Source: Sphingopyxis sp. TUF1
Lineage (GTDB): Bacteria > Pseudomonadota > Alphaproteobacteria > Sphingomonadales > Sphingomonadaceae
NCBI RefSeq assembly: GCF_036687315.1
Contig: NZ_CP144683.1
Span: 2,984,001-3,048,000, forward strand
Reading direction: 5' to 3'
Length of the DNA: 64,000 bases
Position 1 is the first letter of the stretch, and every line of letters starts with the position of its first letter. The position numbers and the translations under genes are program-made. Positions 3,600 through 16,321 of this stretch are shown in pieces. The notes beneath the pieces were generated by a model. That model worked only from the letters and a program-made list of their open reading frames with translations. It was not told where the DNA came from and searched no databases.

Positions 3600-5297
3600 C
3601 TAGGGACAGCGGTTCCAGCCGCGTCCGCGTACCGCGCGGCCCGGCGTGGCGCCGCTATGCTCGCCATCCTTCAGCACCTGCGTGCCGTTCACGAACACGT
3701 CGCGCACGCCGACTGAATATTGGTGCGGCGCCTCGAAGGTCGAGCGGTCGGCGACCGTCGCGGGGTCGAACACGACGACGTCAGCGTAATAGCCGGGCTT
3801 CAGCGCGCCGCGTGCTTCGATGCCGAGATTGGTCGCGGGCAGGGTGGTGAGCCGGTAGACCGCCTGTTCGAGCGGGATCAGCTTCTCGTCGCGGACATAG
3901 CGGCCGAGCAGCCGCGCGAAATTGCCGTAGGTGCGCGGGTGCGCGCCCGATTTCAGGAACACGCCCTCAGTCGCCTGCGACGCCGCGTCGGACGCGAAGC
4001 TCATCCATGGCAGCTGGATCTGCTTGCGGACATTGTCCTCGGACATCAGGAAATAGACGGTGCCGACGCGCGAGCCATCCTCGATGACAAGGTCCATCGC
4101 GGTCTCTTCGGGCGACTTGCCGCGCATCGCCGCAACCTCGGCGAGCGTCTTGCCGGTGAGCGGTTTGAGGGCTTCGCTTTTGAAGCCCGAAAGGATCATC
4201 TTGTCGGCGCCCGCGCCGAAATAGAGATTTTCCCAGTCACTGCCGGGCTTCTTCATTTCCTCGGCAACGCGCGTCCGGATCGCGGGGTCTTTCAGCCGCT
4301 CGATCCACGCCTCCAGCCCGCCCGCCTGCACCCAAGTCGGCATCGCGGCGTCGAGCCCCGTCGCGCCGGCCGTGTAGGTGTACATGTCGGTCGTAATCTT
4401 CAGCCCGGCGGCACGGGCATCTTCGATTTTCTTCACGATACCATCGAGCTTGCCCCAGTTGCTGCGCCCCGCCATCTTCAGATGATAGATTTCGGCGGGC
4501 GCACCCGAGCGGCGCGAAATCTCGATCAGTTCGTCGACTGCCTCCTCGATCCGGTCGCCTTCGGATCGCATATGGCTGATATACATGCCGCCGCACTTCG
4601 CCGCTTCGCGGGTCAGCGTGACAAGTTCATCGGTTTCGGCGTAGGAGCCGGGCGCATAGATGAGCGAGCTGCCAACGCCCATCGCGCCCTCATTCATCGC
4701 CTGCCGCACCAGCGCGCGCATCCGGTCCAGCTGTTCGGGTGTCGGATCGACATCGCCTTCGCCAAGCTCATGCACGCGCACCGTCGCTGCGCCGACGAAG
4801 CTGGCAATATTGGTGGAAATGCCCCGCTTTTCGAGCCAGCCGAAATAATCGCCGAGGCTCGTCCATTCGATCGGATATTGGATGTCGCCCTGCCGCGCCG
4901 TTTCCTGGGCCTTCATCGCCGCGTTCATCGGACCCATCGACCAGCCTTCGCCCATCACTTCCAGTGTCACGCCCTGCCGGATATCGCTCTGGCTCTTGGG
5001 ATCGGCGATCAGCGATTCGGTCGCCCAGCTCAGCATGTTGATAAAGCCCGGCGCGACCGCCATGCCCTTGGCCTGCACCTCGCGCGTCGCCGTTCCTTCG
5101 ACGGTACCGACCGCGACGATGCGATCGCCCCTGATTCCGACGTCGCCGATGACCGGCGAATTACCCGACCCGTCATAAAGGGTGCCGCCGCGGATGATCA
5201 GGTCATAGGCGGGCGCCTGCGCCGCGACCGGCGCTGCGAGCAACATCGAGCTGCAGAGGAGCCAAAGCGGGGGTGCGAAGCGCCGGGGCGATACCAT
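3600..5297 (-). CDS. D-aminoacylase (N-acyl-D-amino-acid deacylase) family amidohydrolase, secreted
   Basis: A 565-residue amidohydrolase with a signal peptide (hydrophobic 10-27, AQA cleavage region), so it should work outside the cytoplasm. It follows the D-aminoacylase pattern: LIIRGGTLYDGSG, GDRIVAVG, YISHMRSEGD, EIYHLKMAG, then the C-terminal HPRTYGNFARLLGRYV and LKPGYYADVVVFDP. The strand that normally carries the metal-binding HxH (GFIDVHTH in relatives) reads GFINMLSWAT at 84-93, so both histidines are missing. It is 21 bp downstream of the XRE-cupin regulator gene and probably co-transcribed. Family role is hydrolysis of N-acyl-D-amino acids; with the altered site the activity is uncertain. 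Confidence 0.85.
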   Translation of the reverse strand: MVSPRRFAPPLWLLCSSMLLAAPVAAQAPAYDLIIRGGTLYDGSGNSPVIGDVGIRGDRIVAVGTVEGTATREVQAKGMAVAPGFINMLSWATESLIADPKSQSDIRQGVTLEVMGEGWSMGPMNAAMKAQETARQGDIQYPIEWTSLGDYFGWLEKRGISTNIASFVGAATVRVHELGEGDVDPTPEQLDRMRALVRQAMNEGAMGVGSSLIYAPGSYAETDELVTLTREAAKCGGMYISHMRSEGDRIEEAVDELIEISRRSGAPAEIYHLKMAGRSNWGKLDGIVKKIEDARAAGLKITTDMYTYTAGATGLDAAMPTWVQAGGLEAWIERLKDPAIRTRVAEEMKKPGSDWENLYFGAGADKMILSGFKSEALKPLTGKTLAEVAAMRGKSPEETAMDLVIEDGSRVGTVYFLMSEDNVRKQIQLPWMSFASDAASQATEGVFLKSGAHPRTYGNFARLLGRYVRDEKLIPLEQAVYRLTTLPATNLGIEARGALKPGYYADVVVFDPATVADRSTFEAPHQYSVGVRDVFVNGTQVLKDGEHSGATPGRAVRGRGWNRCP

Positions 5298-5318
5298 TTT
5301 CTTTTCCTTTTCGGTTAC

Positions 5319-5942
5319 TTATCCGTGCAGACTCATCAGCGAATCCATCAGCCCGTCGTCGGCGCTCGAACAGACGCCAAGCACCAGCGCCTCTTCACAC
5401 CCGTCAGCGACGACATAGGCGTGACCCATCGACGAATCGATATAGATGCCCTGGCCGACGTCGAGTGTGACGGGGTCGTAAAACTCGCTGTGCACCTCGA
5501 TCCGGCCTTCGAGGACGTAGATGAATTCCTCACCCTGATGATGAACCAGCTCGCCGAACTCGCGCGCGCTGTGCGCACGGATGCGCGTGAGGATCGGGAT
5601 CATCCGTTTTTGCCGGAGGTCGGTGCAGAGATAATGATAATCGTAGTTATCGGTGGTGACGCGCGCCGCCCGGTCGATCGTCGCGATGCTGCGGCGCCCG
5701 GTGACGCGGGGTGCGGCATCCTCCTCGTCCTCGGCGAACAAGTCCGACATGCGAATTTTGAGTCGCTGGCTGAGCTGCTGAAGTTTGTCGTAACTCAGCG
5801 TGAGCCGGTCGTGCTCGACCTTCGACAGCGTCGATACGGGGATGCCCGACTTCGCGCTCATTTCCTTGAGCGTCCAACCGTTTCGCGCCCTTATCCCCTT
5901 CATCACCGCGCCGAGCGTCGGCGGCGTTGCACGGTCGGCCAT
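5319..5942 (-). CDS. XRE-family regulator with C-terminal cupin domain
   Basis: The 207-residue protein has an N-terminal helix-turn-helix (residues about 8-62, with SGIPVSTLSKVEHDRLTLSY as recognition segment) and a C-terminal cupin barrel (GELVHHQGEEFIYVLEGRIE, then GQGIYIDSSMGHAYV). Regulators of this kind sense small metabolites, often amino acids or amines, through the cupin. The ATG at 5942 is preferred to an upstream in-frame TTG that sits against the GAGGA sequence. It is divergent from the S12 hydrolase gene, and the space between holds one of two near-identical operator-like sequences, so it is the best candidate for the regulator of the D-amino-acid locus. Confidence 0.9.
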   Translation of the reverse strand: MADRATPPTLGAVMKGIRARNGWTLKEMSAKSGIPVSTLSKVEHDRLTLSYDKLQQLSQRLKIRMSDLFAEDEEDAAPRVTGRRSIATIDRAARVTTDNYDYHYLCTDLRQKRMIPILTRIRAHSAREFGELVHHQGEEFIYVLEGRIEVHSEFYDPVTLDVGQGIYIDSSMGHAYVVADGCEEALVLGVCSSADDGLMDSLMSLHG

Positions 5943-5961
5943 CAGATTTTCCAATCCTCGT

Positions 5962-5989
5962 TTGACAATTTTCTAATCAGGATCATTAT
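5962..5989. promoter_or_regulatory. Promoter/operator copy 1, shared with the receptor operon
   Basis: TTGACAATTTTCTAAT followed by CAGGATCATTAT. The first 16 bases are identical to a site at 9086. TTGACA (5962-5967) and CATTAT (5984-5989) are spaced 16 bp and fit a -35/-10 pair reading towards the S12 hydrolase gene at 6085. It lies 20 bp upstream of the XRE-cupin start on the other strand, so bound regulator could control both directions. Confidence 0.65.
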
Positions 5990-6084
5990 GTCCCTATCGG
6001 GCTAACAGATGTTCGGCCCTTGGTAAGGGGTCGCGCGACTTGCCGCAAGGTGTGACAGGGCGTGCCAGACAAAAGGGGAAAGCG

Positions 6085-8058
6085 ATGCGTTTCATCCGCA
6101 AGGCGATGATCGGGCTCGCGGCATTGGCCGCGCTGCCATTGGCCGCACAGGGGCCAGTGCCTGCGCCAGCCGTGAAGAAGGCCGAAACGATGGCGCCGAA
6201 GGGTATGGTCTCGGCGCCTGTCGCGCTCGATTCAAAAGATCTCGAGGCGTGGATGGACGGCTATCTGCCATATGCGCTCGAGCGGGGACGCATTCCCGGC
6301 GCGGTTGTGGTTGTGGTTCGCGGCGACGAGGTTTTGCTTCAAAAGGGCTATGGGTTCGCCGACGTCGCGAAGCGAGCGCCGGTGCTTCCCGAAACCACGC
6401 TTTTTCGACCCGGATCGGTGTCGAAGCTGGTCACCTGGACGGCCGTGATGCAGCAGGTGGAGGCCGGCAAGATCGATCTGGACAAGGATGTTAACGCCTA
6501 CCTCGATTTCAAGATTCCTCCCTTTGACGGCAAACCGATCACGATGCGCCAGATCATGACGCATACCGCTGGTTTCGAGGAATCGGTGCGCTACCTCATC
6601 AGCAGCGATCCCAAGGCGGTTAAAACGCTCAAAGAGCTGATGCCGCTTGCGCTGCCCAAACGCGTGTTCGCGCCCGGCACGACGCCCGCCTATTCCAATT
6701 ATGCGACAGCGCTCGCCGGTTACATCGTCGAGCGTGTCAGCGGTCAGAATTTCGACGATTATGTCGAAACCCGGATCTTCAAGCCGCTCGGCATGACGCA
6801 TTCGACCTTCCGCCAGCCGCTGCCCGCGCGTCTCGCACCGTATATGGCAAAGGGCTATTCCGACGTTACGGGCAAGGCGGAGCCCTTCGAAATGGTCATT
6901 CCCGGCCCCGCGGGCAGCCTGTCAGCGAGCGGTGCCGACATGGCGAAGTTTATGATTGCGCACCTGAATGGCGGCGGCGGAATTTTGAAGCCTGAAACCG
7001 TCGCGCAGATGCACAATTTCAAGGCTCCCGGCGTCGGTCCGCTCAACAGCATGGCGCTGGGCTTCTACGAGCAACAGGTCAACGGGCGCCGCGCGATCGC
7101 GCATGGCGGCGATACCGTCTGGTTCCACTCCTATCTGTGGCTGTTTCCCGATAGCGACATCGGCATTTTCCTGTCGATGAACGCGCAGGGCAAGGATGGC
7201 GCCACGGGCGCGGTGCGCAGCGCGCTCTTCCACAAATTCGCCGACCGCTATCTTCCCGGCGAAGAAAAGCCGGGGCAGGTCGATGCCGCGACCGCCCGCG
7301 AACATGCGCAGATGATGGTCGGCAATTATGTCAGCAGCCGCGGTTCCTTCACTAATTTCCTGAGCCTGCTGGGCCTGCTCGGACAAGCGACAATCTCGCT
7401 GACCGAAGACGGCAAGCTCAGCTTTCCCGCGCTCGATGGCCTTGGCGCCGGTGCACGCGACTGGGTCGAGGTCGAACCCTTCGTCTGGCGCGACACGGGC
7501 ACCGGCGAGCGCCTTGCCGCCGAGGTTAAGGATGGCCGCGTCGTGCGCATGAGCGTCGATGCCGGATCCCCGTTCATGGTGTTCGAACCGGCGCCTGCCG
7601 GCGTCAACGCCGCCTGGCTCAATCCCGCATTGATTTTCGCCTTCGGCATCATCCTGCTCGCCGCGCTTGCCTGGCCGGTGCGCGCACTGGTGCGACGCAA
7701 CTTCAAGGCGGATTTCGCGCTCACAAGCAAATCGCTCCGCGCCTATCGCTTGTCGCGTGTCTTCGCGTGGCTCGCACTCGGGGCGCTGGCGGGGTGGATC
7801 GGGCTGATCGCGGCCTTTTCGGCCGACATCGGCAGCATCGGCGGGCCGCTCGACTGGTTGATCCACCTGCTGCGCATCCTCACCCCGCTTGCCGCTTTCG
7901 GCTTGCTCGTGACCGCAGCATGGCACCTGTGGCTTTGCATCAAGGACAAGCGGCGCTGGACGATGAAGCTCGGCGCGGTGCTGCTGATCCTCGCCGCCGC
8001 GGTGCTTGTGTGGGTCACGCTCACCTTCCATCTCTATGGCTTCGGGATGGTCTATTGA
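6085..8058 (+). CDS. Serine hydrolase of the beta-lactamase/D-aminopeptidase (S12) family with four C-terminal membrane helices
   Basis: The 657-residue product starts with a signal peptide (MRFIRKAMIGLAALAALPLAAQ; AAGGGGAA upstream of the ATG). The S12 domain follows with Ser111-Val-Ser-Lys114, Tyr203-Ser-Asn205 and a late HGGD as the third motif. After a linker domain come four hydrophobic helices: about 515-535, 560-585, 600-625 and 630-655. The enzyme is therefore probably held in the inner membrane with its active site in the periplasm. Family activities include D-amino-acid amidase, D-aminopeptidase and D,D-peptidase. Its stop overlaps the start of the epimerase gene (ATGA), so the two are translationally coupled. 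Confidence 0.9.
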   Translation: MRFIRKAMIGLAALAALPLAAQGPVPAPAVKKAETMAPKGMVSAPVALDSKDLEAWMDGYLPYALERGRIPGAVVVVVRGDEVLLQKGYGFADVAKRAPVLPETTLFRPGSVSKLVTWTAVMQQVEAGKIDLDKDVNAYLDFKIPPFDGKPITMRQIMTHTAGFEESVRYLISSDPKAVKTLKELMPLALPKRVFAPGTTPAYSNYATALAGYIVERVSGQNFDDYVETRIFKPLGMTHSTFRQPLPARLAPYMAKGYSDVTGKAEPFEMVIPGPAGSLSASGADMAKFMIAHLNGGGGILKPETVAQMHNFKAPGVGPLNSMALGFYEQQVNGRRAIAHGGDTVWFHSYLWLFPDSDIGIFLSMNAQGKDGATGAVRSALFHKFADRYLPGEEKPGQVDAATAREHAQMMVGNYVSSRGSFTNFLSLLGLLGQATISLTEDGKLSFPALDGLGAGARDWVEVEPFVWRDTGTGERLAAEVKDGRVVRMSVDAGSPFMVFEPAPAGVNAAWLNPALIFAFGIILLAALAWPVRALVRRNFKADFALTSKSLRAYRLSRVFAWLALGALAGWIGLIAAFSADIGSIGGPLDWLIHLLRILTPLAAFGLLVTAAWHLWLCIKDKRRWTMKLGAVLLILAAAVLVWVTLTFHLYGFGMVY

Positions 8059-9065
8059 TGGCGACGCAGCGAACGCAGGGATTGACGCTCGACCTTCGGG
8101 TCGAGCGTTTTCCCTATCACCAGCCGTTCCGCATTTCGGGGCATGTCTTTACCGAAACCGCGCTGCTCGTCGCCGAACTCTCCGATGGCGAGCATGTCGG
8201 GCGCGGCGAGGGGGCGGGGGTCTATTATCTCGGCGACGACATCGACCATATGCTTGGCCAGGCGGCCCGCGTGCAGGGTGCGATCGAGCGCGGCGCGACG
8301 CGCGAGGATTTGCAGCAATTGCTGCCGCCCGGTGGCGCACGCAACGCGCTCGACTGCGCCTTTTGGGATCTAGAAGCCAAGCAGACGGGGCGGCCTGTGT
8401 GGCAGCTTGCCGGACTGGACGCGCCAAAGGCGCTGCGCTCAACGCTGACGCTCGGCGCCGATAAGCCCGAACGGATGGCGGCGGCCGCACAGGCGATTGA
8501 CGCGGAGGCGCCGGTCAAGGTCAAGCTTACCGGCGACCTGGCCGACGATGTCGCGCGCATCGAGGCGATCCGCGCGGCGCGGCCCGGCGCCTGGATCGGC
8601 GTCGACGCCAATCAGGGCTATGATGTCGGAACGCTGCGCGACCTGCTGCCCGTGCTCCTCGCGGCCAGGGTCGCGCAGCTCGAACAGCCGCTGAAACGCG
8701 GGTGCGAGGCCGATCTCGATGAGTTGAAGCGTCCGTTGCCCTTCGTCGCTGACGAAAGCGCGCTGTCGCTCTCCGACACCGCTTCGCTCGTCGGGCGCTT
8801 CGACGTGGTGAATATCAAGCTCGATAAATGCGGTGGGCTGACCGAGGGGCTGGCGATCGCGCGGCAGGCGAAGACGCTGGGCCTCGACGTCATGGTCGGC
8901 AACATGATGGGGACCAGCCTGTCGATGGCGCCATCCTATCTGGTCGGGCAGCTGTGCGACATTGTCGATCTCGACGGACCGACCTTCCTCGCGCGCGATC
9001 GTGTGCCCGGTGTCAAGTATCGCGATGGGATGATCCATTGCCCGGCGGAAATATGGGGGTCATGA
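8058..9065 (+). CDS. dgcA: Enolase-superfamily dipeptide epimerase / N-acetyl-D-glutamate racemase-like (DgcA-like)
   Basis: The 335-residue protein has the muconate-lactonising-enzyme fold signature of the Ala-Glu epimerase branch. Seen are the catalytic K154-V-K156, metal ligands D183 (GVDANQGY), E209 (LEQP) and D232 (VADES), and the second-side lysine in VNIKLDKCGG (K254 or K257). It racemises the alpha-carbon of an amino-acid residue. The same subfamily includes DgcA, which interconverts N-acetyl-D- and L-glutamate in partnership with DgcN, and a DUF1611/DgcN-like gene lies 2.3 kb downstream. L-Ala-D/L-Glu dipeptide epimerisation is the alternative. Cytoplasmic; coupled to the upstream S12 hydrolase by ATGA overlap. 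Confidence 0.82.
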   Translation: MATQRTQGLTLDLRVERFPYHQPFRISGHVFTETALLVAELSDGEHVGRGEGAGVYYLGDDIDHMLGQAARVQGAIERGATREDLQQLLPPGGARNALDCAFWDLEAKQTGRPVWQLAGLDAPKALRSTLTLGADKPERMAAAAQAIDAEAPVKVKLTGDLADDVARIEAIRAARPGAWIGVDANQGYDVGTLRDLLPVLLAARVAQLEQPLKRGCEADLDELKRPLPFVADESALSLSDTASLVGRFDVVNIKLDKCGGLTEGLAIARQAKTLGLDVMVGNMMGTSLSMAPSYLVGQLCDIVDLDGPTFLARDRVPGVKYRDGMIHCPAEIWGS

Positions 9066-9072
9066 CAATTGA

Positions 9073-9113
9073 TGTCCTAAATAGGTTGACAATTTTCTAA
9101 TTAGGACAATAAT
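9073..9113. promoter_or_regulatory. Promoter/operator copy 2, upstream of the TonB receptor operon
   Basis: TTGACAATTTTCTAAT at 9086-9101 matches the copy at 5962 exactly for 16 bases. TTGACA (9086-9091) and AATAAT (9108-9113), spaced 16 bp, form a good -35/-10 pair for the receptor gene at 9192. An 8-bp inverted repeat, TGTCCTAA at 9073-9080 and TTAGGACA at 9101-9108, encloses the -35 box, consistent with a dimeric regulator site. Confidence 0.68.
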
Positions 9114-9191
9114 CGCCAAATTGACGATGTGTGGCGCGCGCTGTGACATTTCCCTTTTGTCGCATCCTCGGCCAAAAATGGGGGACCCATC

Positions 9192-11381
9192 ATGAAGCAA
9201 ACTTTTTTGGTCGCCGGCAGCTTGATCGCTTTAGCCGTCAGCATGCCCGGCTATGCGCAAGAAGGCGACGAACGTGAAATTGTCGTCACGGCGCAAAAGC
9301 GCGAGCAGGCGCTGATCGACGTTCCGCAATCGGTGTCGGTGGTGAGCGGCGCGACGCTGGAAAAGCAGCAGGCCGTCACCTTTCAGGACTTCGCAAAGCT
9401 TATCCCGGGTCTGCAGCTTGAACAAAGCAATCCGGGCGAGGGGCGCCTGGTGCTGCGCGGCGTGAACACAGGCGGGGTTGCCTCGACGGTATCCACCTAT
9501 ATCGACGAGACGCCTTTCGGTTCGTCGAGCGGCCAGAACAATGGTGCGATTCTTGCGGGGGAGTTCGACACCTTTGATGTCGACCGGGTAGAGGTTCTGC
9601 GCGGACCGCAGGGCACGCTGTATGGCGCGAGCTCGCTGGGGGGCGTGCTCAAATTCGTCACCAACCGTCCCGACCCCGAGGCGTTTGAGGCGCGTGTGCG
9701 CGGGACCGCCGAAACCACCGACGGCGGCGACATGTCCTATATGGGGCAGGCGCTGATCAACCTTCCGCTCTCTGACAAGGCGGCTCTGCGCGCGTCGGGT
9801 TTTTACCGTTCCTATGGCGGTTATATCGACTCGGTGGGCACGGCGGGGTCCGACGCCGACAAGAACATCAACGATTCGAAGAGCTATGGCGGCCGCATCT
9901 CCGTATTGTTCGCGCCCACCGAAAATCTGTCGATACGGCTGACGGCGCTGCTTCAGGATTTCGACAGTGATGGCGGCAGCACCGTCGAAGTCGATCCTTC
10001 GACGCTGAAACCGCTCTACGGCGGCCTGACCAAGTCGCAATATGTCCCCGAGTTCACGAAGGTGAGGTATCGTCTTTATAACGGTTCGCTCGACTGGGAT
10101 TTCGGATTTGCCGAACTGCTGTCCTCGACAAGTTATGCTATCCAGGACGTCACCCTGCGCGATGATTTGACCACGCCTTATGGCGCGGCGCTTGGGCTGC
10201 CGAGCGACATTGGTCTGGCGCAAATGACCAACCTGACCAAATGGACCCAGGAAGTGCGTCTCCAGTCGCCGGTTGATGATAGCTTCGAATGGCTTGTCGG
10301 CGGATATTACACGCACGAGAAGGGCGGGATTTTCCAGCGGATCGACCTGTTCGAACCGGGCACGCTTACGATCGACCCGCTGCTGCCCGATATCGCCGAT
10401 ATCTTCACGACATCGACCTATGAGGAATATGCCGCGTTCGGCAACGCGACGGTCCATCTTGGCCCGCGTTTCGACGTCACGCTGGGCGGCCGCTACAGCC
10501 ACAACAAACAGTTCGTCGACCAGGGCGGCACCGGGCTGCTGGCGCCGCCGTCGCTCGAATCCACCTCGTCGGAGGACGTGTTTACCTGGTCAGGATCGGC
10601 AAAATACAAGGTGTCGAGCAATGTGGCGCTCTACGCGCGGGTCGCCAAGGGCTTCCGGCCGGGCGGCCCCAACCTGTTGCCGCCCAATGTGCCGGCCGGC
10701 ACGCCCCAGACATACAGTTCGGATTCGCTGATCAGCTATGAAGCCGGCATCAAGGCCGAAACCGCCGATCGCAGTTTTTCGATCGACGCCGCGGCCTTCC
10801 ATATCGACTGGACCGACATCCAGCTTTTTACAGTGATCAACAATTTCGGCCTCAACGCGAACGGCGGCAAGGCAAAGAGCGACGGGTTTGAATTCACCGC
10901 GACGCTTCGGCCGACGCGCGGGTTCGTCCTCTCGCTGAACGGAGCCTATACCAATGCGCGGCTCAAGACCGACACCGATCCTAATGTGGGCGGCCTTGCT
11001 GGAGACTCGCTGCCGTTCACGCCAAAATATAACCTCAACGCGAACATCGACTATAGCTGGAGCCTTGGCGGCAACAGCGAGGCGTTCGTCGGTGCTTCGC
11101 TGCGGTCGCTTTCGAAGCAACGCGCGAATTTCGACGCCGGCTTCGGGGCGCTCTATGGCCTCGATCGTCCGGTCGTCCCAGCCTATGAGGTAATCGACCT
11201 GCGCGCCGGCGTCGATTTCGGCCGCTACTCGGTCGAATTCTTTGCGAAGAATCTGGGTAACAGCCGCGGCATCACCGATGTGGGGACGGGCGGCGGCTTG
11301 CCGGTCGCACCGAACGGCGCCATCACCACGGGCATCGTTCGGCCGCGTACCTTTGGCGTCACTCTGGGGGCCGGATTCTAG
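9192..11381 (+). CDS. TonB-dependent outer-membrane receptor
   Basis: The 729-residue protein has a signal peptide (cleavage near YAQ-EGD at 22-23), a TonB-box-like start (EIVVTAQK), a plug domain with VPQSVSVVSG, LVLRGVN and RVEVLRGPQGTLYGASSLGG, then a beta-barrel ending PRTFGVTLGAGF with the usual terminal aromatic residue. It would import a ligand across the outer membrane using TonB energy. Sphingomonad receptors of this size are often for organic substrates rather than iron. It is the first gene of an operon with dgcN-like, YkvI-like, S12 and M19 genes (gap to the next start 2 bp), which points to D-amino-acid peptides or amides as ligand. Controlled by the 9073-9113 site. Confidence 0.95.
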   Translation: MKQTFLVAGSLIALAVSMPGYAQEGDEREIVVTAQKREQALIDVPQSVSVVSGATLEKQQAVTFQDFAKLIPGLQLEQSNPGEGRLVLRGVNTGGVASTVSTYIDETPFGSSSGQNNGAILAGEFDTFDVDRVEVLRGPQGTLYGASSLGGVLKFVTNRPDPEAFEARVRGTAETTDGGDMSYMGQALINLPLSDKAALRASGFYRSYGGYIDSVGTAGSDADKNINDSKSYGGRISVLFAPTENLSIRLTALLQDFDSDGGSTVEVDPSTLKPLYGGLTKSQYVPEFTKVRYRLYNGSLDWDFGFAELLSSTSYAIQDVTLRDDLTTPYGAALGLPSDIGLAQMTNLTKWTQEVRLQSPVDDSFEWLVGGYYTHEKGGIFQRIDLFEPGTLTIDPLLPDIADIFTTSTYEEYAAFGNATVHLGPRFDVTLGGRYSHNKQFVDQGGTGLLAPPSLESTSSEDVFTWSGSAKYKVSSNVALYARVAKGFRPGGPNLLPPNVPAGTPQTYSSDSLISYEAGIKAETADRSFSIDAAAFHIDWTDIQLFTVINNFGLNANGGKAKSDGFEFTATLRPTRGFVLSLNGAYTNARLKTDTDPNVGGLAGDSLPFTPKYNLNANIDYSWSLGGNSEAFVGASLRSLSKQRANFDAGFGALYGLDRPVVPAYEVIDLRAGVDFGRYSVEFFAKNLGNSRGITDVGTGGGLPVAPNGAITTGIVRPRTFGVTLGAGF

Positions 11382-11383
11382 GC

Positions 11384-12442
11384 ATGTCCATTCCGAAAAT
11401 CGAACTGCCGATGCCCGCTGCGCCGGGAGATAGCCTGACTCTGCCGCAACCCTATCTGCTCTTCCTCGGCAACACGACGGAGGCGGGCTATGCCAAGACC
11501 GCCTTCGGTCTTGCCGACTGGGCGGCCGACCGCTGCGTCGGCGAGCTGGGGATCGCCGGCTGCACGGTCAGCGCGGGCCTGCCGCAGTTGTCGCCCGCGG
11601 AAGCGCGCGCGGCGGGTGCCCGCTCGCTGGTGATTGGCGTCGCCAACCAGGGCGGCGTTATCAGCGAGAGCTGGGTCGCGGCGCTGGTAGAGGCGATGGA
11701 AGCGGGGCTGGACATCATCAGCGGACTGCACACGCGGCTGACGAGTGTACCCGCGCTGGCTGTGGCGTCGCGGCGCAGCGGGCAGCGGTTGATCGATGTG
11801 CGCACCCCGCCGCCGGCGATCCCGGTCGGCAACGGACGCAAGCGCAGCGGCAAACGATTGCTGACCGTCGGCACCGACTGCGCGCTCGGCAAAAAATATA
11901 CCGCGCTGGCGTTGCACCGGGCATTCGTCGCGCGTGGGATCGACGCCGATTTCCGCGCGACGGGGCAGACGGGGATCATGATCGCGGGCGGGGGCATCCC
12001 GATGGATGCGGTCGTGTCGGACTTCGAAGCCGGCGCGGCGGAGATTTTGAGCCCTGACGCGCCTGCCGATCATTGGGACCTGATTGAGGGGCAGGGGTCG
12101 ATCTTCAACCCCGCCTATGCCGCGGTGTCGCTTGGCCTGCTCCACGGCAGCCAGCCCGACGTCTTCGTCGTTTGCCACGATCCCACGCGCAAGGTCATCC
12201 TCGGCATGGAAAGCTTTGCGCTGCCCAGCATAGAGGAAGTGATCGACCTGACGATCCGGCTGGGCAGTCGGACCAATCCGGCGATCCGCTGCGGCGGGAT
12301 CAGCCTCAATACGTCAAGCATGGGGGTGGGTGAGGCCGAAGCGCTGATCGGCGCCGAGAGCCGACGATTGGGCCTGCCCGTTGCCGATCCGATCCGTGGC
12401 GGCGGGGCCTTCGACGCGCTCGTCGAAAATTGTCTCGCATGA
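11384..12442 (+). CDS. dgcN: DUF1611 protein, D-glutamate N-acetyltransferase-like (DgcN-like)
   Basis: The 352-residue product matches the DUF1611 layout: a Rossmann-like N-terminal part (LLFLGNTTEAGYAKTAFG), then a P-loop-type C-terminal part with VGTDCALGKKYTALAL (Gly163-Lys171), RATGQTGIMIAGGG and LIEGQGSIFNPAYAAVSLGL. DUF1611 enzymes have been described as DgcN, acetylating D-glutamate so that DgcA can racemise it. Both partners occur here, although separated by the receptor gene. It starts 2 bp after the receptor stop, and its end overlaps the permease start. Cytoplasmic. An ATP-dependent role in another pathway cannot be excluded from sequence alone. Confidence 0.82.
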   Translation: MSIPKIELPMPAAPGDSLTLPQPYLLFLGNTTEAGYAKTAFGLADWAADRCVGELGIAGCTVSAGLPQLSPAEARAAGARSLVIGVANQGGVISESWVAALVEAMEAGLDIISGLHTRLTSVPALAVASRRSGQRLIDVRTPPPAIPVGNGRKRSGKRLLTVGTDCALGKKYTALALHRAFVARGIDADFRATGQTGIMIAGGGIPMDAVVSDFEAGAAEILSPDAPADHWDLIEGQGSIFNPAYAAVSLGLLHGSQPDVFVVCHDPTRKVILGMESFALPSIEEVIDLTIRLGSRTNPAIRCGGISLNTSSMGVGEAEALIGAESRRLGLPVADPIRGGGAFDALVENCLA

Positions 12443-13578
12443 GTGAGGGCGAGACTGGTGGCAGGTCGAGCTGGTTCCAGCGCTTCCTGCTGCCCGGTTT
12501 CGCGCTGAAAGCCGTCATCATCGGCGGCGGCTATGCCACCGGGCGCGAACTCGCCGAATATTTCGTGCCCTCGGGGCCATGGGGCGGGCTCGCCGCAATG
12601 CTGCTCGCGACCCTGATATGGAGCGGCGTCGCGGCGTTGACGTTCGCGCTCGCGCGGCGGATGCATGCTTATGATTATCGCAGCTTTTTCGAAGGGCTGC
12701 TAGGCCCGGCGTGGATCGCGTTCGAGATGGCCTATCTGATTTTCGTCGTCCTTATCCTCGCTGTCTTCGGCGCCGCCGCGGGCGCAATCGGCGCCGCGAC
12801 CTTTGGTTGGCCCGAACTCGCGGGATCGGTGCTGCTCGCGGTCAGCATCGTTGCTTTCACCGCTTTCGGCACCGCGATCGTCGAGACATTGTTCAAATAT
12901 GCCTCGATGCTGATCTATGCGGTCTATGCGATCTTCATCGTCTTTGCGCTGGCGAGCTTTGGCGATATGATCGGCAATGGCTTTGCAAACGCGCCGCCAC
13001 CCTCGGGAAATTGGGTGGCGGGCGGCATCACCTATGCCAGCTACAATATCGTCGGCGCTGCGATCATCTTGCCCGTGCTCCGCCATTTGACCAGCCAGCG
13101 TGACGCGGTCGTCGCCGGGCTGATCGCCGGGCCGCTGTCAATGCTCCCCGCGATTCTCTTTTTCGTCGCGATGATGGCCTTTTACCCCGCAATCGGTGCC
13201 GAAACACTGCCATCGGATTTCCTGCTGCGCCAGATGGCGGTGCCGGGCTTTCACATCCTCTTCCAGCTGATGATCTTTGCCGCGCTCCTCGAAAGCGGCG
13301 TTGGCGCGATCCACGCGATCAACGAGCGCGTGTCGGGCGTCGTCGAGGCGCGCGGCCGCCCACCGCTCGGAACCGGCATCCGCGCGGCGATCGGTTCGCT
13401 CATCCTCGTCGGTTGCATGTTTGTCGCCGCTCGCGTCGGGCTCGTCGATCTGATCGCGAGCGGCTACCGCTTTCTCGCCTGGCTGTTCGTGATCGTCTTC
13501 GTCCTGCCGCTTGTCACCATCGGCACCTGGCGCCTGCTGCGTCCCGAACCCGCTCCCCTTATGGAGGCCTTGCCATGA
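12439..13578 (+). CDS. YkvI-type integral membrane protein, candidate amino-acid permease
   Basis: The 379-residue protein has about ten hydrophobic helices. Its first helix carries VIIGGGYATGREL, the counterpart of the GAGFASGQE motif of YkvI-like proteins, a distant branch of the APC/LeuT-type transporter superfamily with an unwound glycine-rich helix 1. The ATG overlaps the stop of the DUF1611 gene (ATGA) and its own stop overlaps the next start, so it is fully embedded in the operon. Context makes it the likely inner-membrane carrier for the released D-amino acid; no substrate has been shown for this family that I can name. Confidence 0.78.
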   Translation: MSEGETGGRSSWFQRFLLPGFALKAVIIGGGYATGRELAEYFVPSGPWGGLAAMLLATLIWSGVAALTFALARRMHAYDYRSFFEGLLGPAWIAFEMAYLIFVVLILAVFGAAAGAIGAATFGWPELAGSVLLAVSIVAFTAFGTAIVETLFKYASMLIYAVYAIFIVFALASFGDMIGNGFANAPPPSGNWVAGGITYASYNIVGAAIILPVLRHLTSQRDAVVAGLIAGPLSMLPAILFFVAMMAFYPAIGAETLPSDFLLRQMAVPGFHILFQLMIFAALLESGVGAIHAINERVSGVVEARGRPPLGTGIRAAIGSLILVGCMFVAARVGLVDLIASGYRFLAWLFVIVFVLPLVTIGTWRLLRPEPAPLMEALP

Positions 13579-15146
13579 AACGCCTGCTCGCCCTTTCGCT
13601 CCTGCTCTCGGTCGCGATGCCGGCATGGGCTGAACCGCCCGCCGACATCGCCGAAAGCGTCGAGGCGCTGCGCCAGAAAATTGGCGCAGCGGGCGTGTCG
13701 ATCGCGATCGTCGAGGATGGTCGGACGACGCTGTCGCGCGGCTGGGGCGTGCGCAAGCTGGGCGAAGCGGCGCCCGTCGATGGCGAGACGATTTTTCAGA
13801 CCGGATCGACCGGCAAAGCGATGACCGCCGCGGCGGTCGCTGTGCTCGTCGATGAAGGCAAGATCGGCTGGGATGATCCGGTCATCCACCATATGCCCTG
13901 GTTCCGCATGTACGACCCGTGGGTCACGCGCGAGATCACGATCCGCGACCTGCTCGTCCACAGGAGCGGGCTGGGGCTGGGGCAGGGCGACCTTATGTTC
14001 GTCCCGCGCACGCATCTGACGCGCAAGCAGACGGTCGAGCGGGTCGCTTACCTCAAACCCAGGACGAGTTTCCGCTCGGCCTATGCGTACGACAATATTC
14101 TCTACGCTGTCGCCGGTCAGCTGATCGAAGAAGTCACCGGGCAGACGTGGGAGGATTTCATCCGCGCGCGCGTGCTGCGCCCCGGCGGGATGAAACATGC
14201 CACAAGCGACAGCGAAGAACGCTTCCGCACCCCCAACCGTAGCTGGCCGCACGCGCGCCTCTCCGGCCCATTGCGCGGCATCGGCCCGCAGCAGGCGCTC
14301 AATGAGCGCGACGAGCTGGGCCGCAACGGCGCGCCCGCGGGTGGGCTCGCGCTCAGCGCCGACGATATGGCGGCATGGCTCCGGATTCAGCTCGCCCACG
14401 GCGCGCTGCCTGATGGCAAGCGGCTGTTCAGCGAAAAGCAGGCTATGGAGATGTGGGCGCCGGTGACGCCGATGCCGATCACGCCTTTGCCTGATACGCT
14501 GAAGCCCGCGCAACCGACACAACAGGCTTACGCGCTCGGCTGGCAGGTCCAGGATTATCGCGGCCACCGCATCATCCAGCACGGCGGCGGCGTATTCGGG
14601 TCGATCACGCGCGTCGTGCTGATCCCCGACAAAAATATCGGTTTCGCGATCATGATGAACAGCGAGGATAGCGGGATGCTGCTCGGCCTCACCTATGATC
14701 TGCTCGACCATTATCTGGATCAACCCGACCATGGCTGGATCGAAAAATGGGAGGACTGGTATCAGGCTCGTCTCGCGGGGGGCGTCGAGTTCCTGAAACA
14801 GTCGAAGGCGTCGCCAGCGCGGAGCGGTCCCTCGCTCGCGCTGGCGCGCTATGCCGGGCGCTATCGCGATCCCTGGTACGGTGATGTCGTGATCGGCGCG
14901 GATAAGAAAGGGCTGACGATCGATTTCACCTCGACGCCGCGGATGGCGGGGCGGCTCGATCACTGGCAATATGACAGCTTCGTCACGCGCTTCGACGATC
15001 CGGCGATTGAACCCGCCTATGTGACCTTTGCGCTCGACGCCGATGGCAAGATAACCGGCGTTACCATGAAGGCGGTGAGCAAGATTGCCGACTTCAGCTG
15101 GGATTATCACGATCTCGACCTGAAGCCCGTGGAGGACAAGAATTGA
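13575..15146 (+). CDS. Secreted S12 serine hydrolase (beta-lactamase / D-aminopeptidase family)
   Basis: The 523-residue protein has a signal peptide (MKRLLALSLLLSVAMPAWA) and an S12 catalytic domain with Ser78-Thr-Gly-Lys81, Tyr172-Asp-Asn174 and QHGGG as the third motif. A C-terminal lipocalin-like beta domain (LARYAGRYRDPWYGDVVIG onward) resembles that of D-aminopeptidase and PBP4*-type enzymes. Unlike the other S12 protein at 6085 it has no membrane helices, so it should be free in the periplasm or exported. It is coupled to its neighbours by ATGA upstream and TTGA downstream. It probably hydrolyses a D-amino-acid amide, ester or peptide taken in by the receptor. Confidence 0.9.
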   Translation: MKRLLALSLLLSVAMPAWAEPPADIAESVEALRQKIGAAGVSIAIVEDGRTTLSRGWGVRKLGEAAPVDGETIFQTGSTGKAMTAAAVAVLVDEGKIGWDDPVIHHMPWFRMYDPWVTREITIRDLLVHRSGLGLGQGDLMFVPRTHLTRKQTVERVAYLKPRTSFRSAYAYDNILYAVAGQLIEEVTGQTWEDFIRARVLRPGGMKHATSDSEERFRTPNRSWPHARLSGPLRGIGPQQALNERDELGRNGAPAGGLALSADDMAAWLRIQLAHGALPDGKRLFSEKQAMEMWAPVTPMPITPLPDTLKPAQPTQQAYALGWQVQDYRGHRIIQHGGGVFGSITRVVLIPDKNIGFAIMMNSEDSGMLLGLTYDLLDHYLDQPDHGWIEKWEDWYQARLAGGVEFLKQSKASPARSGPSLALARYAGRYRDPWYGDVVIGADKKGLTIDFTSTPRMAGRLDHWQYDSFVTRFDDPAIEPAYVTFALDADGKITGVTMKAVSKIADFSWDYHDLDLKPVEDKN

Positions 15147-16321
15147 AGCAACTCGCTATCCTGCTGGTCGCGACCTCGCTCGCGGCCTGTTCGGCCGGCA
15201 GCGACGAGCCGAAGGTTGCCCAAGCCCCGCTGCACAGCCGAATGCTGGTGCTCGACACGCATCTCGACACGCCGCTCCATTTCGAGCGCGCTGGATGGAG
15301 CTTCGCCGACCGCCACACCCTCGCCGATGATATGGTCCAGCTCGACATTCCGCGGATGAAGGACGGCCATCTCGATGGCGGTTTCTTTGTCATTTACACC
15401 GAGCAGGGGCCGCTGACCCCCAAGGGCTATGCCGACGCGCTCGCCTTTGCGCGGAAACGGTCGGACCTGATTGACCGCACGCTCGCCAAATATCCCGACG
15501 CGATCGCCCCCGCGCGCACCGCCGCCGATGCCGGGCGGCTGACGCGTGAGGGCAAGCTGATCGTCTTCAAGTCGATGGAGAACAGCTATCCGCTCGGCGA
15601 AGATCTGACACTGCTCGAGGAATTCTATGCCAAGGGCTTGCGAATGGCAGGGCCGGTGCATTCACGCACCAACCAGTTCGCCGACAGCGCGACGGGCGAG
15701 GCGCGCTGGAAGGGGCTGAGCCCGCTCGGCAAACAATGGGTGGCCGAAATGAACCGGCTCGGCATCGTCATCGACGCCAGCCATTCGTCCGATGCGGCGT
15801 TCGACCAGATGCTCGCGCTGTCGAAATATCCGATCATCCTCTCGCACTCCAGCCTGCGTTCCGCCTACGACCACCCGCGCAACCTCGACGAAGCGCGGCT
15901 GAAGGCGCTCGCGGCGAAGGGCGGGGCAATGTGTATTTCGACGATCTTCATGTCCGAAATGAACATGACCCCCGCGCGCGGCGAACTGTTCGGCCAATAT
16001 GAGCGGATCGGCACGATGCCCCCTGCCGAGCAGGCCGAGCTCAACCGCAAATGGCGCGAACTCGACAAGACCGAAGCCCTATGGGCCGCCGATTTCGAGG
16101 ATTATATGAAGATGGTGCTGCGCGCGATCGAGGTCGCGGGCCCCGATCATATCTGCTTCGGTGCCGACTGGGACGGCGGCGGCGGCCTGAAGGGCATCGA
16201 GGACATCACGGCACTGCCCAACGTCACCGCGCGGCTGAAGGAAGCGGGCTATTCGGATGCCGACATCGAAAAGATGTGGAGCGGCAATGTCCTGCGCATT
16301 CTGAACGCGCAGAACGGCTAG
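15143..16321 (+). CDS. Membrane dipeptidase (peptidase family M19), lipoprotein
   Basis: The 392-residue product starts with a lipoprotein signal (LLVATSLAAC, lipid-bearing Cys16) and then has the M19 zinc sites: His40-x-Asp42 in LVLDTHLDTP, the bridging Glu in KSMENSYPLG, the histidines in VIDASHSS and IILSHSS, and Asp in CFGADWDGGGG. M19 enzymes cut dipeptides whose second residue may be D, the property needed to release D-amino acids from L,D-dipeptides. The start is a TTG overlapping the previous stop (TTGA), with GGAGG 8 bases upstream. It is the last gene of the receptor operon. Confidence 0.93.
   Translation: MKQLAILLVATSLAACSAGSDEPKVAQAPLHSRMLVLDTHLDTPLHFERAGWSFADRHTLADDMVQLDIPRMKDGHLDGGFFVIYTEQGPLTPKGYADALAFARKRSDLIDRTLAKYPDAIAPARTAADAGRLTREGKLIVFKSMENSYPLGEDLTLLEEFYAKGLRMAGPVHSRTNQFADSATGEARWKGLSPLGKQWVAEMNRLGIVIDASHSSDAAFDQMLALSKYPIILSHSSLRSAYDHPRNLDEARLKALAAKGGAMCISTIFMSEMNMTPARGELFGQYERIGTMPPAEQAELNRKWRELDKTEALWAADFEDYMKMVLRAIEVAGPDHICFGADWDGGGGLKGIEDITALPNVTARLKEAGYSDADIEKMWSGNVLRILNAQNG

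Follow-up and report, generated by a model that had tools for sequence, protein, structure and literature searches.

The stretch of DNA analysed here, called the window below, comprises 64,000 nucleotides (positions 2984001-3048000) of the 3.47 Mb single-contig genome of Sphingopyxis sp. TUF1. At positions 3600-16321 of the window lies a locus in which a TonB-dependent receptor (TBDR), hydrolases of the S12 and M19 families and a permease are found together with relatives of DgcN and DgcA, the pair of enzymes of D-glutamate (D-Glu) catabolism. We read it as a candidate locus for the use of peptides with D-residues. An earlier reading made from the sequence alone had postulated ten contiguous genes; we count nine, every named gene being present with an open frame. 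The features are as follows.

3600..5297, minus strand: amidohydrolase (Amidohydro_3) of the D-aminoacylase superfamily; signal-like N-terminus by eye
5319..5942, minus strand: XRE-cupin transcription regulator, divergent from S12a; HTH_3 and Cupin_2 architecture
5962..5996, plus strand: operator-promoter 1, TTGACA-16-CATTAT within the conserved TTGACAATTTTCYAATCAGGATCATTATGTCC, in the XRE-cupin/S12a intergenic stretch; would serve S12a-DgcA2
6085..8058, plus strand: S12a serine hydrolase, SxxK at 111 and YxN at 203; one N-terminal and four C-terminal hydrophobic segments
8058..9065, plus strand: DgcA2, a DgcA/YcjG-type racemase/epimerase of the enolase superfamily; catalytic residues intact, G28/F31/Y57 in place of R/[KR]/R
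9086..9120, plus strand: operator-promoter 2, TTGACA-16-AATAAT; would serve the TBDR-DgcN2-Perm-S12b-M19 operon
9192..11381, plus strand: TBDR, the most variable among seven proteins compared
11384..12442, plus strand: DgcN2, a DUF1611 protein, sister of the D-Glu N-acetyltransferase DgcN; Glu-type R47/R273 replaced by A/L
12439..13578, plus strand: permease (Perm) with a predicted fold of LeuT/APC type; assigned to the YkvI family by source names
13575..15146, plus strand: S12b serine hydrolase with DUF3471, SxxK at 78 and YxN at 172; signal-like N-terminus by eye
15143..16321, plus strand: M19 dipeptidase; lipobox-like N-terminus by eye, nearest solved relative 2rag

The amidohydrolase and the XRE-cupin gene make up a minus-strand arm, and operon 1 (S12a-DgcA2, joined by a TGATG overlap) runs divergently from it on the plus strand. 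In operon 2 a 2-bp gap lies between TBDR and DgcN2, ATGA overlaps join DgcN2 to Perm and Perm to S12b, and a TTGA overlap joins S12b to M19; this tight coupling of the receptor operon had been described in the sequence-only reading and was verified throughout. DgcA2 belongs to operon 1 and DgcN2 to operon 2.

Conservation of the locus and its operator

The family sample consisted of 149 genomes, the own genome included, which were searched for DgcN-like proteins. Such a protein was found in 35 of them at an E-value of 1e-30 or better and in 20 at an identity of at least 62%. The 40 stretches that were drawn cover 41 of the 55 match places outside the own genome, the 14 places left out being of lower identity. 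Around the matches of at least 62% (own excluded) XRE-cupin, S12a, DgcA2 and Perm occur together in 19 of 23 stretches, in one of which (L058) DgcA2 is cut by the end of the stretch; the four without the full set are L051, L052, L055 and L060, the last a contig of 3.6 kb. A wide scan used one genome per species for 84,980 species, and the best 80 of 588 relatives gave a best-hit sample of 79 loci. We call locus-type those in which the identity to DgcN2 is at least 60% (57 of the 79), and gene counts use the 44 of these 57 that are at least 20 kb long.

The sequence-only reading had named as fatal to it that relatives should keep the operon without any D-amino-acid enzyme. The counts do not refute it: DgcA2 is kept in 35 of the 44 full-length loci, the remaining 9 having DgcN2 without a DgcA2 that passes the threshold in the stretch. 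Perm is present in 33, XRE-cupin and S12a in 31 each, the TonB receptor and S12b in 30 each, and less common are a POT symporter (17), a second M19 (15), M19 itself (14) and the amidohydrolase at an identity of at least 55% (13). The five-gene core of XRE-cupin, S12a, DgcA-like protein, permease and S12b is complete in 26 of the 44, mostly in sphingomonads but also in Rudaea, Povalibacter, a Xanthomonas and two Pseudoxanthomonas, that is, in Alpha- and Gammaproteobacteria. A Duganella locus has most of the gene set, the permease match being absent, and is hence not a complete core. Median identities in the complete loci are 47% for TBDR (23 loci), 54% for S12a, 60% for DgcA2, 62% for S12b, 64% for Perm and 71% for both DgcN2 and XRE-cupin: a varying receptor sits on a steadier core. 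The ten best relatives of DgcN2 are 80-89% identical to it, eight of them labelled Sphingopyxis, and the best named relative of DgcA2 is found in Sphingopyxis alaskensis with 92% identity. A chance cluster was rejected because the arrangement recurs in many genomes and the operator is conserved.

Of the extra genes in the relatives' loci, the representatives scanned code for transport proteins (the POT symporter and other TonB receptors), for hydrolases (S9/S15 peptidases and further proteins of the M19 family and of beta-lactamase fold) and for one AsnC-type regulator. No substrate is named by any of them. Four cassettes (L108, L114, L115 and L118) contain a second M19, DgcN2 and S12 genes and no DgcA2 match within the stretch, and operator-like sites of 14 to 31 bits lie ahead of their M19 gene. 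Such satellite cassettes may draw on a racemase encoded elsewhere.

The XRE-cupin/S12a intergenic stretches of the relatives have a common motif, TTGACAATTTTCYAATCAGGAT..ATTATGTCC, which in some copies forms a clear inverted repeat, as in L063 with AATCAGGAT-AAACAT-ATCCTGATT; at operator-promoter 2 inverted arms GTCCTAA/TTAGGAC are found at 9074-9080 and 9101-9107. In the own genome the motif is matched with zero mismatches at two places, before S12a and before the TonB receptor, while the other five matches carry 3 mismatches and a control with the reversed pattern gives 2 of that kind. A genome-wide regulon was rejected, the exact matches being confined to the two sites of the locus. From 19 intergenic stretches, 12 went into the training of an operator matrix, the other 7 not fitting the search expression. 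Among the locus-type loci the matrix matches 43 of 57, among the other loci 1 of 22 and among the canonical ones 0 of 10; some of the scanned loci come from about the same genome as training loci, such as L117 and L054 with their identical DgcA2. The single match outside the locus type is in an AT-rich Bacteroidales metagenome-assembled genome with scores up to 18.9; at 25 bits the three counts become 37 of 57, 0 of 22 and 0 of 10. Shuffled sequence gave 2 matches above 14 bits, the higher at 18.2, in 4.56 million positions. In the relatives the matches mostly precede S12a and the second operon. Of all sigma70-like matches in the region, the highest two are the operator sites of the window (10 and 11 of 12 positions).

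Since the motif is shared, is conserved and overlaps both promoters, it is very probable that the two operons are governed by the XRE-cupin protein, which would bind at the operator. That the locus is one regulated unit had been claimed from the sequence alone, and the common operator-promoter motif, exact nowhere else in the genome, bears this out. The regulator is PuuR-like in architecture alone, scoring 45.6 bits against the PuuR model NF007408, whose cut-off is 211.

The DgcN2-DgcA2 pair

The gene names of the sequence-only reading hold in so far as all the genes are present; the DgcN and DgcA relatives fall below the equivalog cut-offs, and the amidohydrolase has diverged ligand stretches. 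DgcN2 reaches 446.7 bits with the NCBIfam DgcN equivalog NF041892 (cut-off 480), and DgcA2 reaches 367.1 bits with the DgcA equivalog NF042940 (cut-off 400) and 230.8 bits with the L-Ala-D/L-Glu epimerase model NF011708, the YcjG model (cut-off 343). The genome has a second pair which passes both cut-offs, in a LysR-DgcN1-DgcA1 set at genome positions 375048-378028, with 523.4 bits for DgcN1 and 413.9 bits for DgcA1; the DgcA copies of the loci L075 and L079 score 436.5 and 422.1 bits against the same cut-off of 400.

In an alignment of 93 DgcA rows the catalytic KxK, D, E, D, K and DxD residues are preserved in all 93; in DgcA2 they are K154, K156, D183, E209, D232, K254/K257, D304 and D306. 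We take KxK to be catalytic, D/E/D to be the metal ligands and the second K to stand on the other side, and the DxD pair 304/306 presumably binds the ammonium group of a dipeptide. What differs is a code of five putative pocket positions, 28, 31, 54, 57 and 58. It reads R[KR]PRY in 21 of the 93 rows, among them E. coli YcjG (RRPRY), and 4gfi is identical by alignment. A neutral code (G/D, F/I/W/Y, G/P, Y/F, any) is found in 65 rows, and the window's DgcA2 reads GFGYL. The other 7 rows have other codes, for instance RQGYK in L149, RHGYA in L159 and L068, RAGYD in L162, RIGYE in L170 and RFPHY in L074; these proteins possibly represent further substrate classes.

Groups defined by the code are circular, and the comparison was redone by the neighbouring regulator, either an XRE-cupin gene within 12 kb or a LysR gene within 4 kb, which leaves out rows with neither in range. 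Positions 28, 31 and 57 are all basic in 7 of 7 DgcA proteins in LysR context, and not one of the three is basic in any of those in XRE-cupin context (0 of 51). Position 31 of the latter is F in 49 and I in 2. It aligns with R24 of YcjG and is R likewise in 3iji and 4gfi, and we assume that this YcjG residue contacts the Glu side chain. When the five code columns are removed, the resulting tree unites 61 rows, all of neutral code, in one clade with a support of 99 (Shimodaira-Hasegawa-like approximate likelihood ratio test, SH-aLRT).

Each DgcN row was assigned to a group according to the code of a DgcA lying within 8 kb of it. Of the 20 partners of Glu-type DgcA, 19 have R47 and all 20 have R273. 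Of the 67 partners of neutral-type DgcA, 58 have A47 (4 have R), 55 have L273 and 65 have Y/F36; the Glu-type DgcN proteins form one side of a tree branch with a support of only 72. Changes in the opposite direction are two basic positions gained in DgcA (175 and 214) and none in DgcN. DgcA and DgcN, which belong to unrelated families, have lost basic residues and gained aromatic ones together, as judged from these alignments. Position 171 of DgcN was dropped as a discriminating site, since 10 of the 20 proteins in the wider Glu-type group have K there.

Around DgcN1-DgcA1 (stretch L012:4881-15735, genome 366000-385000) are found genes for an AmpG-like transporter (324.5 bits, below the cut-off of 350), an S12 protein, an S13 carboxypeptidase, an amidohydrolase bearing HxH and an L,D-transpeptidase. 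This neighbourhood looks like a setting for D-Glu cell-wall recycling in the own genome. A link between AmpG and DgcN-DgcA is not shown to be general, because in the 79 best-hit loci the AmpG-like query has no match above 30% identity. A third DgcA/YcjG-like gene (stretch L013:9669-10661) scores 390.5 bits against the cut-off of 400 and has the pocket code RTPYL; no DgcN match was found within its 19-kb stretch. Another sphingomonad genome, G085, has seven DUF1611 copies, 50-73% identical to that of the window, hinting at several substrate variants.

Proposed function and alternatives

S12a and S12b both show the marks of the S12 family (SxxK, YxN and PF00144). The nearest solved relatives of S12a are 2qmi, which we take to be Pab87, and the alkaline D-peptidase 4y7p, and its matches include ClbP (3o3v) and class C beta-lactamases; the similarity to solved S12 enzymes is moderate, with E-values from 3e-30 to 2e-14. 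M19 passes PF01244 with 303.9 bits (gathering score 26), and 2rag is matched with an E-value of 3.7e-124. The amidohydrolase aligns to the D-aminoacylase 1m7j (E-value 1.2e-76) and to 3gip (1.7e-68), and in the alignment with 1m7j SHTH stands against MLSW and GNCG against GE-G; we take the HTH and GNCG stretches of 1m7j to be metal-ligand sites. Six loci labelled Sphingopyxis retain the protein with 84-91% identity in spite of the replaced HxH and Cys stretches, which suggests that it is probably functional in another way. Export-like N-termini were seen by eye in the amidohydrolase, S12b, M19 (lipobox-like) and the receptor, and a hydropathy scan flagged the N-terminus of S12a and none in DgcA2 or DgcN2.

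The permease is named YkvI by the source annotations. It has no Pfam or NCBIfam match at thresholds (the sole match, E-value 4.6, is meaningless) and its sequence has no match among solved structures. Its predicted model (mean predicted local distance difference test 89.8) resembles BasC, SLC7A10 and AdiC with template modelling scores of 0.69, 0.67 and 0.58, as well as further transporters with this APC-type fold, those for metals among them. Distant relatives (38%) adjoin DgcN in L151, L152, L159 and L171 from other Proteobacteria, where no XRE-cupin match was found and three of the four also have a DgcA-like gene; the link between permease and DgcN may be older than the locus.

In the mechanism that we propose, peptides with D-residues would cross the outer membrane through the TonB receptor and would be cleaved in the periplasm to amino acids or dipeptides by the M19 lipoprotein dipeptidase and by the S12 hydrolases, which would be exported. 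The products would enter the cytosol through the YkvI-type permease, to which many relatives add the POT peptide:proton symporter. There DgcN2 would N-acetylate the free D-amino acid, DgcA2 would racemise the N-acetyl (or dipeptide) form to L, and an enzyme encoded outside the locus would deacetylate it. The XRE-cupin regulator would sense a product of the locus and control both operons through the one operator overlapping their promoters. DgcN2-DgcA2 would be a sister pair of DgcN-DgcA whose preference has moved from D-Glu to a D-amino acid without charge, probably a hydrophobic or aromatic one. We infer the order of the steps, the export, the action of the regulator and the identity of the amino acid.

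The use of D-peptides is a function that we hold to be quite probable, and a substrate of DgcN2/DgcA2 other than D-Glu is favoured, if less firmly; for a D-peptide scavenging locus, a non-Glu substrate and the proposed mechanism all being right together, the chances seem about even. Of the sequence-only reading the conserved locus stands, joining receptor, exported-looking S12/M19 hydrolases, amino-acid-type permease and a pair of the DgcN and DgcA families, and D-Glu as what it harvests is not supported.

A number of observations speak against the reading as a non-Glu D-peptide locus. There are 4 promoter-like sites in the region, which is not above shuffled sequence (2.9, standard deviation 1.9). 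The functional meaning given to position 31 is drawn from structural work on these epimerases, and the residues at 57-58 are YL in 3iji too, an epimerase which we take to be active on Glu dipeptides, so that position 31 bears most of the weight. The first DgcA and DgcN comparisons grouped the proteins by the very code compared, and the grouping by context and the tree without the code columns are the fairer ones; the LysR-context group has 7 rows only, and four DgcA rows of neutral code fall outside the clade. Twelve DgcA columns separate the code groups completely, several of them away from the two loops, and therefore plain divergence contributes to the difference between the groups. In 10 of 20 sampled genomes with a locus-type DgcN there is no DgcN of lower identity, so the division of labour between DgcN paralogues is not universal. 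The amidohydrolase has its diverged ligand stretches, and no deacetylase is found among the nine genes of the locus.

The locus might harvest D-Glu from the stem peptides of peptidoglycan, with DgcN2/DgcA2 as a second D-Glu pair. The two proteins do belong to the DgcN and DgcA families, and the types of enzyme to which M19 and S12 belong fit L,D-peptides and D-peptides. Set against this are the basic residues gone at positions 28, 31 and 57 of DgcA2 and at R47/R273 of DgcN2, the scores below both equivalog cut-offs, and the pair elsewhere in the genome which passes them beside AmpG-like, S13 and L,D-transpeptidase genes; nor is there, among the nine genes, one of AmpG type (muropeptide importer) or a NagZ-type hydrolase. 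DgcN is described as acting on D-acidic amino acids in PMC12363236, which counts for D-Glu. On balance D-Glu is disfavoured as the substrate of the window's pair, and we regard such a second D-Glu pair as unlikely.

It also seems rather unlikely that DgcA2 is mainly a dipeptide epimerase, turning imported L-X-D-Y into L,L-dipeptides to be cut by ordinary peptidases while DgcN2 separately handles free D-amino acids. Its solved relatives include the L-Ala-D/L-Glu epimerase 1jpd, the sources name its close relatives dipeptide epimerase, DgcA2 and DgcN2 stand in separate operons, and a POT symporter follows directly after DgcA2 in 14 of the 17 loci with both. The window's locus, however, has no POT gene, the DgcA model scores higher than the YcjG model, and the DxD pair, retained in DgcA2, is retained in canonical DgcA as well. 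The locus could, as a third view, be mainly protective: exported S12 proteins of beta-lactamase fold and M19 would inactivate antibiotics with D-residues and the rest would clear the products. Two S12 hydrolases with SxxK and YxN, and the S12a matches to an alkaline D-peptidase, ClbP and class C beta-lactamases, agree with this; but S12a (80.5 bits) and S12b (56.1 bits) are below the cut-off for class C beta-lactamases (415), M19 occurs in no more than 14 of 44 loci, and receptor, permease and racemase indicate uptake and use. We consider protection as the main role very improbable. Microcystin degradation was also weighed as a conceivable role, given that Sphingopyxis has S12 enzymes.

A wider and more doubtful proposal than that of D-peptide use through a non-Glu pair is that Proteobacteria carry exchangeable D-peptide loci, in which an operator-controlled core (XRE-cupin, S12, DgcA2, DgcN2 and permease) is combined with varying TonB receptors or importers for foraging on hydrophobic D-peptides, for example nonribosomal ones. 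If so, DgcN-DgcA would be less a D-Glu pathway than a D-to-L module of general use, serving several substrate classes by acetylation and racemisation.

Comparison with known systems

The enzyme families and the DgcN-DgcA pairing are already known. What is seemingly new is the specificity-shifted pair, its operator and the way in which a single conserved locus joins the pair to a TonB receptor; a literature search by titles and the starts of abstracts, with the primary DgcN-DgcA paper outside its reach, found no such locus described. Close relatives of DgcA2 are labelled dipeptide epimerase or L-Ala-D/L-Glu epimerase by the sources, and if the reading of the pocket is true these labels name the wrong amino acid, DgcN-DgcA is a module converting several D-amino acids to L, and Sphingomonadaceae and some Gammaproteobacteria have a genetic route for living on D-residue peptides, which belong to the recalcitrant organic nitrogen. 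The common operator makes the regulon computationally definable.

The DgcN-DgcA pathway for D-Glu catabolism was reportedly described by Yu et al. in 2023. The window has the same two enzyme families with the catalytic residues of DgcA intact; it differs in that the pair is below the equivalog cut-offs and has lost the Glu-type basic residues, that the regulator is XRE-cupin and not LysR, and that a TonB receptor, S12 and M19 hydrolases and a YkvI permease are added. With E. coli YcjG (1jpd) DgcA2 shares the fold family, KxK with the metal-ligand residues and the DxD pair, whereas RRPRY of YcjG is GFGYL in DgcA2 and the neighbourhood is not that of ycjG-mpaA.

The S12 proteins have the family and motifs of 4y7p, 2qmi and ClbP (3o3v), and S12a resembles ClbP further in its hydrophobic segments after the catalytic domain, a topology that ClbP has too; the similarity is moderate, and the scores are below the cut-offs of the NCBIfam models shown. 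The amidohydrolase is similar in sequence to the D-aminoacylase 1m7j and the N-acyl-D-Glu deacylase 3gip, with the HTH and GNCG stretches replaced. Loci of the polysaccharide-utilisation type with TonB receptors offer an analogy: the window's locus has peptide and D-amino-acid enzymes and no glycan genes among its nine, but it would share with them a variable receptor, a steadier degradative core and one local regulator.

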